Of a stretch of 64,000 bases of DNA, positions 34,888 to 41,683 are shown piece by piece. The notes beneath the pieces are model-generated. The model was not told the DNA's origin. It worked only from the letters and a program-made list of their open reading frames with translations, and did no database searches. Every line of letters starts with the position of its first letter. The first letter of the stretch is position 1. The translations under genes and the position numbers were made by a program. Source of the DNA: Gloeocapsa sp. PCC 7428 (GTDB lineage: Bacteria > Cyanobacteriota > Cyanobacteriia > Cyanobacteriales > Chroococcidiopsidaceae); NCBI RefSeq assembly GCF_000317555.1, contig NC_019745.1, forward strand, positions 4,526,001-4,590,000, written 5' to 3'.

Positions 34888-35283
34888 CTAACGCATAATT
34901 GGACTGCCATGATGCTGAATTAAATACCATTCTTGTGCCATCTTTTGAAAGATATTCGTTGCAAGCGATGATGCTTTTACTTTTCTACCTCGATTCGACT
35001 GCAAGACAATTTCTCGGACGACGACATAAGCGATCGCTTGGTCAACTTCTACTTTAATAATTTCCGTTTCAATTTCTAAAAAATCAGTATGGCGAAAGAT
35101 AGATTCCCAAGAGGATCGAATATTCTCCCATCCAATTAGGACATTTCCACCTGGATGAACGCACAAACTAGTTGCCCCCTGCCACCACAAACGGTTCATG
35201 CTGGCGATTTCTCGATTAGAAAAAGCACGATAAAAGGCTTCGTTAACCGCTAAAATTGCTTCTTTATCAGATGAATCAGTCAT
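34888..35283 (-). CDS. SnoaL-like / nuclear transport factor 2-fold protein
   Basis: A 131-residue NTF2-like cone fold protein: ILAVNEAFYRAFSNREIASMNRLWW, then CVHPGGNVLIGWENIRSSWESIF, and SSLATNIFQKMAQEWYLIQHHGSP. Members include small isomerases and ligand-binding proteins, with no fixed activity. It is the last gene of a leftward group PAD - DOPA-dioxygenase-like - SnoaL-like with gaps of 65 and 29 bases, and it ends 26 bases from the ABC ATPase, convergent. Confidence 0.8.
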   Translation of the reverse strand: MTDSSDKEAILAVNEAFYRAFSNREIASMNRLWWQGATSLCVHPGGNVLIGWENIRSSWESIFRHTDFLEIETEIIKVEVDQAIAYVVVREIVLQSNRGRKVKASSLATNIFQKMAQEWYLIQHHGSPIMR

Positions 35284-35312: not shown

Positions 35313-35654
35313 TTAAAGCACATCAAGTTTTAAATTTTGTGGTTCTCCCATCCACGACGCATAATCAGTATGGTCTTTTAAATCGTTTCCAGTTAAAGGG
35401 TGAATGAGAATTGTTAACCCATTTCGATTGAGCGCTAACCATGATAGTAAATCTGTATACTGACTACGATTAAAAGCAAGCTGACAACTCCAACTCGGAT
35501 GTGGTCCAACTTGCTTATGGTGCATCCGACCAACAGTTACTTGAAATAGTTCACCTGCTGCTTCACACAAAGCTTGGGCTTGTCCAACAGTTGATTCGTC
35601 GAAGTACACGTGGGCGTGATAACCCTTAATTAAACTGAGGTCTTGAAATTCCAT
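35313..35654 (-). CDS. DOPA 4,5-dioxygenase family protein
   Basis: A 113-residue protein of the small DOPA-4,5-dioxygenase family: GYHAHVYFDESTVGQAQAL near the start, GRMHHKQVGPHPSWSCQLAF in the middle (His residues for metal), and LTILIHPLTGNDLKDHTDYASWMG near the end. Fungal members cleave L-DOPA to make betalain precursors; bacterial members are largely uncharacterised. Its position beside PAD suggests co-transcription, but no functional link is known. Confidence 0.85.
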   Translation of the reverse strand: MEFQDLSLIKGYHAHVYFDESTVGQAQALCEAAGELFQVTVGRMHHKQVGPHPSWSCQLAFNRSQYTDLLSWLALNRNGLTILIHPLTGNDLKDHTDYASWMGEPQNLKLDVL

Positions 35655-35719: not shown

Positions 35720-37774
35720 TTAACCCTGTAGTGAGGAATGGTTGAAAAATTTTGGTTCAATCTCCCACCATTTTTGACCAAAAGGTTGTCGGCTAGTATT
35801 AGTACCGCAATGAATTTCTCCTCCTCCTCGAAAATAAGGGTCCCAATCATCAATAAAGTGACAAACTAAACCCAAAGGTTCTAAAACTGCTCGAACATCA
35901 GCTTCAAATTGACATTGAGTATTGATCTGAGGTCCAAATGGTCTAGGAATAGCAAGATGCTGATTGAGAACAATCATATTAACCATGTTAGGGAAAAAAG
36001 TTTCCGCTCGTCCATCTCCATCATCTTGAAACAAAGCTGGTATGTCGATAATATCTTCTTCACCTAAACCTAATTCGTGTTTTAAAGCCTCGCGATTCCA
36101 ATTAATATATTCTTGAAAGCGTTCGTTTTCACGAGTCAATTCTTCGTTATCAAGAACATCTGTCACACTAATATCAGCAGGTTTTTTATAAAGCTGTTTG
36201 CCTTGTCGCAATAATACCTGAGAATGTCCTTCGTTTTCTAAGCGTTGGAGAATGCTATAACACTTGTCTGGACTTGCGAGAAGGAGCTTAAAACCCTTAG
36301 AATTAGGAGCAGGAACAAACGTCATAAATTCATCGATATGCCCCACACTCAGCCAATCAGAGAAGATTTCAAACGGGGCTTGAATTTTTTGTGCAAAAAA
36401 GAAGTCTCGTAAAACTTTTAACTTGCGGCGCGGGTCTTTGATGATGTCTTGGCGCGTTCCGCCAAATATCAAACGCCCAAAAGGATAATCAATTCCTTTG
36501 ACGGTGACTGGTGGAGAAACTTCTAAATTTCCAAAAGAATCTAATTTTGTGGCTGAATAGCGGCTTTTACGAATCACATACCCAAAATCACTTCCTAGCA
36601 ATTTGCGTTTGGCAAAGCGATCGAGTCCGCGATCGCGTGGCGAATCAAGTACTACGTGAATGCATTTTCCTGGTGCTTGAGTATAGCCTATTTCAATTTC
36701 ATCGCGCATCCAAGGATCGTCTTTATGAAATTCAAAAGGAACAGGATCTAATTGCGCATTGGCTTTGCCTACAACTTTTCTCAGTTCCTCTATAAATTCT
36801 TCGTTTTTTTCCTTCGATAAACGAGATACAAACACAGTAATTGGTGATAAAGTATTAGGAGTCATTATCCAAGGAGCAACGCGAAAAACTACGCGATCGC
36901 TGTAGATTGTTTCTCCATCTTTTGTAAGATTTAAATTAATATTGACCAAACCATCAAAATCTACATCAGGATAACTTAATCCCTTCACACCTAGGAGAAT
37001 ATCATGGTCGGTTTCTCTAATTTTTGCCTTTGCTCTCTTGGCTCCAATTAACTCACAATAACCTTGATCTAGTTCATCATAAATGCAAATGCGCCTAGCA
37101 ATATTTTGATCTACCGATAAATTAACTTTGCACCCATCAGGAAGCGTTTTCACCCCCACTCTGCGAACAATGATAAAGCTCAATTCTTTTAAATTTGGTA
37201 GTCTTTGAATATGTTTTTTCTCATCATATTGACTGCAAGAATGAACAAGGTCGCGATCGGTATTAACAACTAAAATCGCACCGTGACCATTAACTCCCCA
37301 TTTCCAATCTCCTTTATTAGGATTATTTTCTTCAACAATTCCATCGCGATCCGCATCTACATCTAGACAAATCCGCAGACAAGTTAGCTTCAGTTGAATT
37401 TTACTCAGTTGATGACCATTCTGATCGTGGAAAACTATTTGTAGCGAACGATCATTGAGGCGATCGCTAAAGGTTCTTGCTAGCAGGATAATCTTTGGAA
37501 GCTGCTTGATCGAAACTGAGGTTTGTGTATCAACGAGTTGATTTATATTCGAGTAAATTTCAATTTCTCCCTGCACTTTGAAGCTAATACTTGCATCCTC
37601 AGAAGGCGCAATATGTTCTAAGGAGATTTGCGCTGGTTGACCAACAACTAAAATATCTTCATATTCTCTACTTTCTTTTTGAGAACGTGAATAAACTTTA
37701 GCAGATGTTTCAATCTGTAATATTTCTCTCATAACTGACTTGTTTATATCGCTTTTAATAGAGATTCTCAGCAC
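35720..37774 (-). CDS. Protein-arginine deiminase (PAD), full-length three-domain form
   Basis: A 684-residue protein strikingly like vertebrate PADs, calcium-dependent enzymes that convert peptidyl-arginine to citrulline. The N-terminal beta domain is followed by the second Ig-like domain (DVDADRDGI, WKWGVNGHGAILVVNTDRD, RVAPWIMTPNT). The catalytic domain has WMRDEIEIGY with Asp358, SDWLSVGHIDEF with His479 and Asp481, and EIHCGTN with Cys656; these match Asp350, His471, Asp473 and Cys645 of human PAD4. Substrate arginines in DSPRDRGL are kept. One calcium ligand position (Gln349 of PAD4) is Arg here. GTG 37774 opens the frame; ATG 37732 is an equally good start. No signal peptide is seen. 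Confidence 0.9.
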   Translation of the reverse strand: MLRISIKSDINKSVMREILQIETSAKVYSRSQKESREYEDILVVGQPAQISLEHIAPSEDASISFKVQGEIEIYSNINQLVDTQTSVSIKQLPKIILLARTFSDRLNDRSLQIVFHDQNGHQLSKIQLKLTCLRICLDVDADRDGIVEENNPNKGDWKWGVNGHGAILVVNTDRDLVHSCSQYDEKKHIQRLPNLKELSFIIVRRVGVKTLPDGCKVNLSVDQNIARRICIYDELDQGYCELIGAKRAKAKIRETDHDILLGVKGLSYPDVDFDGLVNINLNLTKDGETIYSDRVVFRVAPWIMTPNTLSPITVFVSRLSKEKNEEFIEELRKVVGKANAQLDPVPFEFHKDDPWMRDEIEIGYTQAPGKCIHVVLDSPRDRGLDRFAKRKLLGSDFGYVIRKSRYSATKLDSFGNLEVSPPVTVKGIDYPFGRLIFGGTRQDIIKDPRRKLKVLRDFFFAQKIQAPFEIFSDWLSVGHIDEFMTFVPAPNSKGFKLLLASPDKCYSILQRLENEGHSQVLLRQGKQLYKKPADISVTDVLDNEELTRENERFQEYINWNREALKHELGLGEEDIIDIPALFQDDGDGRAETFFPNMVNMIVLNQHLAIPRPFGPQINTQCQFEADVRAVLEPLGLVCHFIDDWDPYFRGGGEIHCGTNTSRQPFGQKWWEIEPKFFNHSSLQG

Positions 37775-37876: not shown

Positions 37877-40800
37877 ATGCGCTACAAATTAACGCTAACT
37901 TGGTTTTGCTTAATCTTGTCAATTTATACAAGAGGTTTATCATTAATCCTTAGTGACTCACGCATTGCCAACAGCTTTTTCACTGCATCTGCTATGAATG
38001 AAACTGCCCTCAATCGATTTTGGGAATTATTGGGATGGGTGCTAGCGCTCAAATTTGAAGCCTTTGAACAAATTAACATCCTGCCGTATGGCTCGACAGT
38101 TGCGTTCGTCGTTGTTCTAGCTGCTAGCTTATCTCAAGTCGTTGCTCAGAGCGTTGTTCTATTCGTCAATCGGGTTACACCCATTCGCTTTGTATTTACG
38201 CTGCTGATTGGAGCAGTTTTATTTGCATTTGGCTACTTCTTCCTAGTTTTGAGTACTTGGTTAATTAGCTTTGCTCCATTTACCGTTGAAGCTCGTTTTG
38301 AGGTGGTAGCACGCACTTTAGGATTTAGTTACGCACCGCTCATCTTTAGTGTTTTTGGAGCGATGCCTTACTTAGGAGAACCGATTCTATCAGTGTTATC
38401 GCTGTGGCAGTTGTTGGCAATGGTTGTTGGCTTTGCCGCCGCTAGCAATACGACTGTATGGCAGGCATTTGGAACTGTCGCGTTGGGATGGTTTACGCTG
38501 TGGGTGATGCAACGCACGATTGGTCAGCCGATCGCCCAGTTTGGTTATTGGATTGCTTGCCAAGTAGCGGGTGTAGAACTCGTCACTAAGCGCGAACGGC
38601 TTCCAGCGATTTTACAAAAGCGATTGCGTGCTTTTGCGACGAATTTAACGGTAATGAACAGATTCGACGCAACAGCTGTCACATCTTTTCAGATAGAAGC
38701 ACAAACCACTTCTGTAAAGAAGCGATCGCAATACTCCACATCAAATTTTCCAAGTAATGCAGCCGTTTCAGCCCAGGCTGATGCCATCGATCGCGATCGC
38801 CGTTTTCAGTTGAGTAAAATTGTCCGACAACTCCCCAGTCTCGTCGGACTCACTGGCGTTACTTTTGCAGCGATCGTTCTTCTCTCACCGATTCGTTACT
38901 GGTGGTTCGCCTGGTATGGTAATTTGGGCGGGATCTTTAAACTAGCCTTCGATTTAGTATGGATTGGCATAATTGCCTTTGTCGCCGCTGCGATTTTAGC
39001 TCCCTTAGAGGCGCTTGGCTGGTGGGCGGGTTGGTATGGCGATCGCGTCAACACTACGTCTGCGACAACCGAAAAACCGCAATCTATCCCACAACACATC
39101 TCGCGTTATGTCGTTTATCTCGATGGTATCGGTCAATCTACATTTGACTATTTACCAGATATTCAAGCGTTTCTCGACTCTTTAGCACCAGTTTTACCAA
39201 AAGACGTGCTGCTCATTAAAGGCATTATGCCCTACTCAGTCCGCAATAACCCACTGACAGGCAACCGTCCTCTAGCATTCTTTTGGCGCTTGGCTGACTC
39301 ATTTAGACTCAAAAATCCTGCAAGTTTGTTTGGTTATTTAGTCAATCTCCGCAATGTCTTGGTTGTCGCGGTGTCTGCTGACAAACGCTATGGACCAATC
39401 TACAATCTGGGAATTGCCAAGGTTATTTATCAAGCGCTCATCCGACATGGCTACCAATCTGATAGCGATGTTCCAATTACGCTGATTGGTTTTAGCGGCG
39501 GTGGCCAAATGGCAGCAGGAGCCGCCCCATTTTTACGACAGGTATTAACTGCCCCGATTGAGGTAATCTCGCTTGGAGGAGTTATTAGTGGCAATATTAA
39601 CATCTTAAAACTAGAGCATCTCTATCATTTGGTAGGTGACAAAGATTTCGTTGAGCGTATGGGTCTGATGTTTCCCAAACGTTGGGCGATCTTCTTCTTG
39701 TCTTACTGGAATCGTGCCAAACGCCTGGGGAAAGTGAATCGAATTTCGCTTGGTCCGGTCGGTCATCAACTCCCAGGAGGATTAATGGACCCCGAACAGT
39801 TTCTCCCCGACGGTCGCAGTTACTTGCAACAAACGATCGATTGGGTCGTAGAAATTTTACTAGGCACTGCTGCGATAGAAGATCGAGCAACTCCTCGCCA
39901 AGCCAGTAATTATGAACGGTATCGGCAAGCCGCTTTCAATCAACCTCAGTTTTATCCACTCGATCAGTCGGTGTCACAAGAATACTACCACCCAATTGCA
40001 CCCTGGATGGGAAGATTGATTTTGCCTGCTAAAGAGCAACGGCAAACGATTAAAGGCGTCTTGTTTGAAGTGCATCATGCACCCGCCGATTTTCAGCAGC
40101 TTGTTGGACAAGTTACAATCTTGCGCTGGAGCGACACGCCACAAGTGCGATCGTATGTCAAAGCAGTAACGAAAGACGTGCATTTCAGCGCTCAAGCCGA
40201 GTACAGCAGTCAACAAGGCAACATTCACCCAACGCGAATTAATCACTGGCGACTTGTCGATCCCTTAGAATCGCTAGCCGGTTCGCATCCCGTTGATGAT
40301 GTTGTCGTGATGTTGCAAGAACCCATTGCCGTGCAACTCCTCCCTGATATACGTCAATCTGCGCATGAGGCAAGTATCTCTGCATACGCGTTGTCTATTT
40401 CTCGCGACCCCGTTCAAATTACAGGACGCTACTACGGCTTGGTAAAATTTATACAACTTGTAGAAGCCGACAGTGATTTGTTTCGCGTAGTTCACTTTAA
40501 TCGGACTTCAAAGCAATTTGATGGAGCAGAAGAAATTGTCAAAATGCCTTCTGTAGTAGCCAATCGCAATGATACTTACCCATCTACTAACAAAGACATT
40601 GAAAAATCTCCCCTGAATGAAACTGGATGGTACATCTATGGTGCGCCGGATGCGTCAGGGGTGTTTGTCGTACAAGCATTAGCCCCTCGCGTTCTGTTTC
40701 AGGTCGAACCAAAGCGGAGAATTGAAGGCAAAGCAGTCAAAAAATATCTCAAAAAAGAGGTTTGGGGCAATTTGACGGCGCAAAAAGGTAAAATTAGCAC

Positions 40801-41683
40801 TGCATTACTCGGTAGCAATACTAACAATGCAGCTTGGCACGAAGGTAAGCGGGCGCTACTCATTCACGTTTATGGCGGAATTGGTGGTCAGAAAACAGAA
40901 CCTAAGGCGAAAGGTCCAGTTTACTTTGGTCATTTTGCTTATGGAATTGCCGAAGTAGTGCGCGAACCGCTAACTGATGAATTGCGATTTGAAATTGTCT
41001 ATCATCAAATTTATACGCATAATACTGATGGATTAATTGCAGGTAGCTTGCATTGGTCGCGTTACATGGGCGATCGCTCTTTTGGTTGGATGGGATTGCG
41101 TCCTGTTTGCGATACCCTTGTCGAACTCGATGGATTTACTGGTGATTATGAAACTACTGATGGTCAGAAGCGATCGCCTTTGGATCAAGTCGTTTATCAG
41201 CTAGAAATTATGGCGGCTCGCTATCGTATTGGTGATGGGACAGGCGGCACTTTTGTGGGACCAGCTAATAACTGCACCCAAGACGCCAATCAAGCTTTAT
41301 ATGCTGCACTGAGGCAAATAGCTCAAGCGATTCGTTCTCACCCAAACGTTGAGGAGTGGAAAAAACAAAATCCCGAACAGTTGCACAGACTAGAGCAGCT
41401 AGAACAGTTGGGTCTTGATTTGAAACGTTTGCTCTTACCCTGGGGGACAGCACGCGCCGACTGGAAAAATCAGGCGGAGGTACTAGGTAGCACACTAGAA
41501 GATAACCCAGTGCAAAACTTAATCCGTAGTTTAATTAGTTGGCGCACCATCTTACCTCGTTTGACCAGCGATGAGGTGACTCAAGCTTTTCTCAGACAGG
41601 GTGGTTCAGCGTGGGTGTTACGAACTAATCAAATTGGTGGAGTAGATCCGGATATCGAGCCTGTAGCTCCGATAACACTGTAG
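37877..41683 (+). CDS. Large membrane protein with alpha/beta-hydrolase-like domain
   Basis: A 1268-residue protein. Residues 1-240 and 320-380 hold about eight hydrophobic segments. A hydrolase-like domain follows: YVVYLDGIGQSTFDYLPD, then IMPYSVRNNP, VSADKRYGPIYNLGIAKVIY, and the nucleophile elbow GFSGGGQ with Ser540. The C-terminal 550 residues are soluble and contain YHQIYTHNTDGLIAG, SFGWMGLRPV and GTFVGPANNCTQDANQAL, a block I believe is shared by cyanobacterial proteins labelled Abi/CAAX-protease-like, though I cannot confirm it. The start could instead be the ATG at 37994. The gene at 43855 is a shorter relative of the hydrolase part. Confidence 0.65.
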   Translation: MRYKLTLTWFCLILSIYTRGLSLILSDSRIANSFFTASAMNETALNRFWELLGWVLALKFEAFEQINILPYGSTVAFVVVLAASLSQVVAQSVVLFVNRVTPIRFVFTLLIGAVLFAFGYFFLVLSTWLISFAPFTVEARFEVVARTLGFSYAPLIFSVFGAMPYLGEPILSVLSLWQLLAMVVGFAAASNTTVWQAFGTVALGWFTLWVMQRTIGQPIAQFGYWIACQVAGVELVTKRERLPAILQKRLRAFATNLTVMNRFDATAVTSFQIEAQTTSVKKRSQYSTSNFPSNAAVSAQADAIDRDRRFQLSKIVRQLPSLVGLTGVTFAAIVLLSPIRYWWFAWYGNLGGIFKLAFDLVWIGIIAFVAAAILAPLEALGWWAGWYGDRVNTTSATTEKPQSIPQHISRYVVYLDGIGQSTFDYLPDIQAFLDSLAPVLPKDVLLIKGIMPYSVRNNPLTGNRPLAFFWRLADSFRLKNPASLFGYLVNLRNVLVVAVSADKRYGPIYNLGIAKVIYQALIRHGYQSDSDVPITLIGFSGGGQMAAGAAPFLRQVLTAPIEVISLGGVISGNINILKLEHLYHLVGDKDFVERMGLMFPKRWAIFFLSYWNRAKRLGKVNRISLGPVGHQLPGGLMDPEQFLPDGRSYLQQTIDWVVEILLGTAAIEDRATPRQASNYERYRQAAFNQPQFYPLDQSVSQEYYHPIAPWMGRLILPAKEQRQTIKGVLFEVHHAPADFQQLVGQVTILRWSDTPQVRSYVKAVTKDVHFSAQAEYSSQQGNIHPTRINHWRLVDPLESLAGSHPVDDVVVMLQEPIAVQLLPDIRQSAHEASISAYALSISRDPVQITGRYYGLVKFIQLVEADSDLFRVVHFNRTSKQFDGAEEIVKMPSVVANRNDTYPSTNKDIEKSPLNETGWYIYGAPDASGVFVVQALAPRVLFQVEPKRRIEGKAVKKYLKKEVWGNLTAQKGKISTALLGSNTNNAAWHEGKRALLIHVYGGIGGQKTEPKAKGPVYFGHFAYGIAEVVREPLTDELRFEIVYHQIYTHNTDGLIAGSLHWSRYMGDRSFGWMGLRPVCDTLVELDGFTGDYETTDGQKRSPLDQVVYQLEIMAARYRIGDGTGGTFVGPANNCTQDANQALYAALRQIAQAIRSHPNVEEWKKQNPEQLHRLEQLEQLGLDLKRLLLPWGTARADWKNQAEVLGSTLEDNPVQNLIRSLISWRTILPRLTSDEVTQAFLRQGGSAWVLRTNQIGGVDPDIEPVAPITL

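Follow-up and report, generated by a model that had tools for sequence, protein, structure and literature searches.

Known PADs and their calcium control

Animal protein-arginine deiminases (PADs) and a close type of cyanobacterial PAD form one clade, for which a cyanobacteria-to-animal transfer has been proposed (PMC8826395). The same study found cyanoPADI, the Cyanothece sp. 8801 enzyme, to be active and to depend strictly on calcium. Its site analysis, which used six cyanobacterial species, gives calcium sites 1 and 3 as conserved and assigns sites 2 and 4 exclusively to the cyanobacterial/animal clade; the catalytic residues are given as conserved across all homologues, and calcium dependence is described both for animal PADs and for cyanoPADI, the one cyanobacterial PAD assayed (PMC8826395). 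For human PAD2, Ca1 and Ca6 are described as permanently bound; activation brings binding of Ca3-5, after which Ca2 opens the active site (PMC8599989). Human PAD4 is half-saturated at 0.28 mM calcium, compared with 100 nM calcium in a typical cell, and its Ca1 triple mutant Q349A/E353A/E411A is left with 0.1% of the wild-type catalytic efficiency (PMC5445078), which makes unconstrained drift at the Ca1 site unlikely.

Since cyanobacterial PADs have been published and one has been characterised biochemically, carrying such a gene is in itself nothing new. The family is known; the new element here is the anatomy of the calcium sites. The terms "Q350" and "calcium-independent" are absent from the main text of PMC8826395, and no description of the Arg-type clade presented below was found in the literature on cyanobacterial PADI, citrullination or calcium independence that was covered, most subscription papers lying outside this coverage.

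An intact PAD gene in Gloeocapsa sp. PCC 7428

Analysis of the window, a 64,000-nucleotide stretch of the Gloeocapsa sp. PCC 7428 genome (contig NC_019745.1), revealed an intact open reading frame on the minus strand (35720-37774) with 684 amino acids counted from an in-frame GTG. A sequence-only reading had placed the start at this GTG, which is likely wrong: the genes of relatives start at or near an internal ATG 42 bases downstream, and the likely start is therefore at 37732, giving 670 amino acids. Residues are numbered from this ATG.

35720..37732, minus strand: protein-arginine deiminase gene, ATG start, 670 aa (in-frame GTG upstream at 37774)
37382..37660, minus strand: degenerate PAD_N-like region, residues 25-117, below the Pfam cut-off
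36923..37375, minus strand: PAD_M middle domain (PF08527), residues 120-270, holding the Ca3-6 sites
35762..36907, minus strand: PAD catalytic domain (PF03068), residues 276-657
36701..36703, minus strand: catalytic Asp344 (Asp358 from GTG), PAD2 D351
36338..36340, minus strand: catalytic His465 (His479 from GTG), PAD2 H471
36332..36334, minus strand: catalytic Asp467 (Asp481 from GTG), PAD2 D473
35807..35809, minus strand: nucleophile Cys642 (Cys656 from GTG), PAD2 C647

The protein is full-length, and all four catalytic residues align with D351, H471, D473 and C647 of human PAD2, none being displaced. This confirms that the window gene is a real, intact member of the PAD family, as had been proposed. 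Two details of that proposal required correction. The motifs described as identical are so only for HCGTN; RVAPWIMTPN and SDWLSVGHIDEF in the window stand against RIAPWIMTPN and SDWLTVGHVDEF in PAD2. Of the architecture described as complete, the catalytic and middle domains gave very strong matches, to PF03068 (E 1.2e-158, profile covered nearly in full) and PF08527 (E 6.7e-46), but PAD_N gave only a sub-threshold match (E 0.22-0.23). PAD_N is annotated in animal PADs (PMC8826395). Among 17 aligned close PADs, the window included, 11 gave a PAD_N match at E<=1, the best at 2.8e-4.

All 27 sequence matches in the Protein Data Bank were named protein-arginine deiminases, led by PAD2 (E about 1e-159) and followed by PAD3, PAD4, PAD1 and PAD6. 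Human PAD2 is about 45% identical to the window protein over the aligned stretch. Human PAD2 and PAD4 share the PAD_M and PAD domains with it, and the window protein keeps the catalytic residues of PAD2; unlike it, both human enzymes have Gln at the Ca1 ligand and PAD2 has the full Ca3-5 set. CyanoPADI is, like the window protein, a cyanobacterial PAD of the clade shared with animal PADs; compared by description only, its calcium sites are reported as conserved, whereas the window protein has Arg at Ca1 and substitutions at Ca3-5 (PMC8826395). The AlphaFold2 model of the window protein was poor (mean pLDDT 56, with blocks of 21-44 around Arg343), its side-chain geometry being unreadable; a Foldseek search with this weak model gave alignments of 632-678 columns among the 50 matches listed. 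No other PAD was found in the genome, a 5.88-Mb assembly of five contigs of which the 5.43-Mb one carries the window; the family search used for this was positive in 0 of 14 control genomes. No excess of promoter or terminator signals was seen around the gene.

Distribution of close and distant PADs

At E<=0.001, PAD matches were obtained in 54 of the 243 genomes sampled from the order, in 27 of 388 of the class (a sample overlapping that of the order) and in 26 of 217 of the family of genome G229. The 54 PAD-bearing genomes of the order include 12 with the close type (at least 55% identity); the Ca1 position is Arg in eight of these (the G017 copy being broken) and Gln in four. Described earlier as rare and informative, the family has a published and partly characterised membership and a wider spread than these words suggest. 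An incidental look at the sampled genomes noticed none with two intact close-type copies; G118 had one close-type and one distant-type match.

In the trees, the window PAD grouped with human PAD2, the only animal sequence, and with the close cyanobacterial PADs against the distant bacterial PADs with 100/100 support, a value to be read with caution as long branches meet at this split. The window PAD belongs to the type proposed as donor of animal PADs (PMC8826395), as the sequence-only reading had stated. Human PAD2 took no supported position among the cyanobacterial sequences in either tree, and the question of which lineage gave animals their PADs is therefore left aside here. Searches of phages gave no PAD match, 119 stretches of viral contigs matched two PAD peptide patterns with no relative confirmed among them, and plasmids yielded four distant actinobacterial matches with 25-31% identity. 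A virus- or plasmid-borne origin of the window PAD is therefore unsupported.

The Gln-type close PADs (L007-L013, L015, L020, L031, L033, L119 and others) are about 54-70% identical to the window protein and have the same catalytic residues, but Gln350 is retained in them, and so are the Ca3-5 ligands apart from a few substitutions (D166N, D169A or E, D389N). The distant cyanobacterial PAD-like proteins (type B) are about 25-30% identical to the window protein. All four catalytic residues are present in 22 of 29, and E354 and E412 in all 22 of these; unlike in the window protein, the Ca2 ligands E352 and D370 are absent from 7 of 7 examined. The other seven (L041, L045, L046, L048, L063, L065 and L068) carry Ser or Asp in place of the nucleophilic Cys, and in five of them, L041 and L048 being the exceptions, the His or the first Asp is missing too. 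By their residues they are likely pseudoenzymes, and they recall human PAD6, labelled inactive by a PDB molecule name.

Replacement of the Ca1 ligand Gln by Arg

Calcium ligands were taken from lists for PAD4 (PMC5445078, Table 1; PMC13023937, legend), PAD2 numbering being that of PAD4 plus one; PAD2 numbering is used for ligands below. In the window protein, Glu354 and Glu412 of Ca1 and all Ca2 ligands (E352, D370, S371 and D374) are retained, and the third Ca1 ligand is replaced.

36704..36706, minus strand: Arg343 codon (CGC), replacing the Ca1 ligand Gln350 of PAD2 (Gln349 of PAD4)

Position 350 was compared in 40 deduplicated, unbroken close cyanobacterial PADs. Broken, partial or fragmentary sequences (L014, L019, L021, L032/L072, L110 and L127-L130), copies identical to others (L029, L030 and L055, identical to L009, L015 and L005) and 12 further duplicates were left out of this set; L014 and L019 were present in the first tree. 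Arg occupies the position in 23 sequences, the window included, and Gln in 17. Human PAD2 and PAD4 also have Gln there, as do 28 of the 29 distant PAD-like proteins, the exception being Lys in L063, one of those lacking the Cys. On the tree, Arg350 is a single change, and the fork of the Arg clade has 100/98 support, computed with the trait columns omitted (347 and 350 in the first tree; 21 ligand and neighbouring columns in the second). Seven distant sequences chosen from the 29, all catalytically intact in sequence, entered the ligand comparison and three of them the second tree.

All 23 Arg and all 17 Gln sequences keep the catalytic residues, E354, E412, E352, D370 and D or N at 374; S371 is retained in 23/23 Arg sequences. 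D123 and D127, which we take to be Ca6 ligands, are likewise retained in 23/23 Arg sequences. Of the Ca6 ligands named in PMC8826395, D125 and E131, the latter drifts too (kept in 12/23 Arg and 14/17 Gln sequences). Other states specific to the Arg clade are Gly 642 (mostly Arg in the Gln sequences), Ser 652 (Arg in the Gln sequences), Pro 337, Lys 443, Phe 451 and Ala 599, with further changes at 381 and 394. The losses of Arg at 652 and 642 lie near the catalytic Cys in sequence. PAD2 R347 leaves the active site upon activation (PMC8599989), and its replacement by Pro in the window was considered as the loss of a gate residue. This candidate was dropped: PAD4 has Gln there, and Pro347 is not specific to the Arg clade, occurring in Gln-type L009, L010, L012, L015, L119, L124 and L125, with Ile in Arg-type L113.

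Erosion of the Ca3-5 ligands in the Arg clade

Comparison of the middle-domain cluster with PAD2 revealed D169K, D177N, D180E and E253K in the window protein; N154, D156 and D166 are kept and Asp is present at 158. The calcium switch residue D389 is kept as Asp382.

36983..36985, minus strand: Lys250, replacing the Ca5 ligand Glu253 of PAD2 (by alignment)
37184..37195, minus strand: Asn180 and Glu183, replacing the Ca3/Ca4 ligands Asp177 and Asp180 of PAD2 (by alignment)
37217..37219, minus strand: Lys172 at the position of the Ca5 ligand Asp169 of PAD2 (indel-bearing loop, alignment less certain)

Retention in the two sets, followed by tree changes in the Arg clade vs the Gln sequences plus PAD2, was as follows.

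N154: 16/23 Arg, 17/17 Gln; 6 vs 0 changes
D156: 23/23 Arg, 17/17 Gln; 0 vs 0 changes
D166: 10/23 Arg, 15/17 Gln; 8 vs 1 changes
D169 (D or E): 5-10/23 Arg, 15/17 Gln; 13 vs 4 changes
D177: 14/23 Arg, 17/17 Gln; 5 vs 0 changes
D180: 19/23 Arg, 17/17 Gln; 4 vs 0 changes
E253: 9/23 Arg, 17/17 Gln; 5 vs 0 changes
D389: 18/23 Arg, 16/17 Gln; 3 vs 1 changes

Three more alignment settings gave the same counts except for D169, in the loop with indels. Asn, Glu and Gln are themselves able to coordinate calcium. At 253, K, R or Q replaced Glu in 14/23 Arg sequences (Lys in the window) and in 0/17 Gln sequences. The catalytic residues, E352, D370, S371, E354, E412, D123 and D127 showed no tree changes in either set. 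Approximate branch lengths were 3.59 for the Arg clade, 2.92 for the Gln sequences and 5.34 for these plus PAD2, and mean within-set identity was equal (72.3% and 72.6% for the Arg and Gln sets). Taken singly, D180 and D389 showed no significant difference between the sets (Fisher 0.12 and 0.22, relatedness ignored).

N154, D177, D180 and E253, fixed in the Gln set plus PAD2, underwent 20 changes inside the Arg clade, which is 20 of the 22 Arg-clade changes in the 31 D/E/N columns invariant in the Gln sequences plus PAD2. Among all 167 columns invariant in that set, the five Ca3-5 columns hold 20 changes (P about 3e-5 in random five-column draws; 0.002 when limited to middle-domain columns; both post hoc). 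Columns with at least two deviating Arg sequences made up 4/5 of the Ca3-5 columns vs 30/167 overall (P 0.004; 0.019 in the middle domain), and 2/3 vs 7/58 when agreement of the seven distant sequences was required as well (P 0.036; 0.067 in the middle domain). These tests were made after the erosion had been noticed, on an alignment sharing most sequences. Three added Arg sequences keep N154, D177 and E253, the sole new change being D180E in L113. N154 and E253 are kept in all 22 distant PAD-like proteins with four catalytic residues, D177 and D180 being D in 15 each; given this variation, most weight falls on the losses of N154 and E253.

In the basal Arg sequences L002, L107 and L109, every one of the eight Ca3-5 positions still carries D, E or N, which indicates that Gln was replaced by Arg first and that erosion came later; the branch of L016/L056/L058/L059 and L023 are down to 3/8. 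The Arg clade has a single origin, so there is only one instance behind this link between Arg and later erosion. The earlier suggestion of an altered calcium dependence, drawn from the Arg at a Ca1 ligand, gains weight here: the Arg marks out a whole clade, within which Ca3-5 ligands erode.

Selection and broken copies

In the catalytic domain, dN/dS was 0.086-0.191 in eight Arg pairs and 0.085-0.105 in three Gln pairs; over the whole gene it was 0.125-0.229 and 0.126-0.188, respectively. These low values, a sign of purifying selection, indicate that the intact Arg enzymes are maintained. Broken or fragmentary PAD copies occur in several cyanobacteria (L014, also L110; L032/L072/L082; L021, also L128; L129). 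Those of L032/L072 (in G017) and L014/L110 (with one in-frame stop) are of the Arg type; L021/L128 and L129 are fragments of unassigned Arg/Gln type. From these copies, the PAD gene seems to be dispensable at times.

Calcium control in the Arg clade

We see about an even chance that the window PAD is an active deiminase whose calcium control has been remodelled, reduced or lost, with the Arg possibly taking the place of Ca1. Activity, calcium requirement and the position of the Arg side chain are what we infer from the residues. Peptidyl-arginine would be converted to citrulline by the usual PAD chemistry, with Cys642 as nucleophile, His465 and the two Asp. In a first step, the Ca1 ligand Gln became Arg, its acidic partners Glu354 and Glu412 (Glu347 and Glu404 of the window protein) staying; the guanidinium may sit at the place of Ca1 as a tethered cation. 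With a fixed Arg adjoining catalytic Asp344 and both Ca1 glutamates invariant, the most plausible reading is that a built-in positive charge stands in for Ca1, from which a release of Ca3-5 would follow. In a second step, the Ca3-5 cluster, through which calcium is coupled to activation in human PADs, decayed, presumably freed from selection; the Ca2 and Ca6 sites are perhaps still in use. With Ca1 replaced and Ca3-5 decayed, the enzyme's calcium requirement should be below that of animal PADs or absent altogether. More tentatively, and in our view possible rather than probable, the whole Arg clade may have escaped the calcium switch, Arg substituting for the Ca1 ion and the regulatory cluster having decayed, with constitutive calcium-independent citrullination in bacteria as the outcome. 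Given the distance between the 0.28 mM needed by PAD4 and cellular calcium, such a calcium-free enzyme would be active where a switched one is silent. If so, the Arg lineage would separate the calcium sites needed for catalysis from those for control only, could supply a calcium-free citrullination tool, and would allow the origin of the enzyme to be told apart from that of the calcium switch.

It is rather unlikely that the window protein is an ordinary calcium-dependent PAD like cyanoPADI, in which the Arg swings away, the remaining ligands and backbone carbonyls bind the ion, and the Ca3-5 changes only weaken affinity. The nesting of the Arg clade among calcium-type PADs on the trees and the strict calcium dependence published for cyanoPADI, known here by description (PMC8826395), agree with such an enzyme, as do the retained E354, E412, Ca2 ligands, D123 and D127 and, in the window, D389, N154, D156 and D166. 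The reversed or neutralised charge at E253 and the reduction of some members to 3/8 Ca3-5 positions argue against it. A shift in substrate, by which changes at 350, 642 and 652 retuned the Arg clade and calcium-site erosion was a by-product, would fit the clade-specific changes elsewhere in the protein, but Trp348 and Arg373, the latter presumably a substrate-contacting residue, are invariant in 21/21 Arg sequences, and no conserved neighbour outside the window's family hints at a substrate; we regard this as improbable. Very improbable is a dying or inactive enzyme, with Ca1 destroyed by the Arg and the clade heading to loss. The nearly dead human Ca1 triple mutant (PMC5445078) and the broken Arg-type copies and fragments described above point that way. 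Against it, the catalytic residues are present in 23/23 intact Arg sequences (broken copies having been excluded beforehand) and catalytic-domain dN/dS is low; the Cys missing from 7/29 distant PAD-like proteins indicates that, in this family, a loss of function can be read from the sequence.

Gene neighbourhood

Two genes lie downstream of the PAD gene on the same strand, after gaps of 65 and 29 bases, respectively. Divergent from PAD, a 1268-residue open reading frame (37877-41683, plus strand) had no Pfam match at E<=0.001.

35313..35654, minus strand: DOPA 4,5-dioxygenase-family gene (PF08883), 113 aa, co-directional with PAD
34888..35283, minus strand: SnoaL_3 gene (PF13474), 131 aa, co-directional with PAD

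The trio has the same order in 5/5 PAD-bearing genomes of the window's family (one with a broken PAD) and is restricted to that family among 36 loci surveyed, the window included (PAD visible at 35). The relatedness of these genomes makes the trio weak evidence of a shared role, and the retention of both downstream genes beside a broken PAD argues against their strict dependence on PAD. A close dioxygenase homologue (86-91% identity in relatives) was present in those five genomes and in 0/14 other family genomes examined, four of which had a distant homologue (42-46% identity). No PAD match was obtained in these 14, G575 and the congener G085 among them; some are incomplete, and the absence from G085 is tentative, as only 53 bases of its contig follow the flanking match. 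A literature search for a RiPP-type substrate (lasso peptide, citrulline, peptide arginine deiminase) found none. A neighbour-based substrate claim was not built, the trio being family-bound and other sharing sparse: among the 30 largest gene clusters listed, none that the window shares extends to more than two loci beyond the family (L010; L015; L005, with L086 as its copy). The exception is a broad grouping of 10 loci, which includes an ABC-transporter ATPase.
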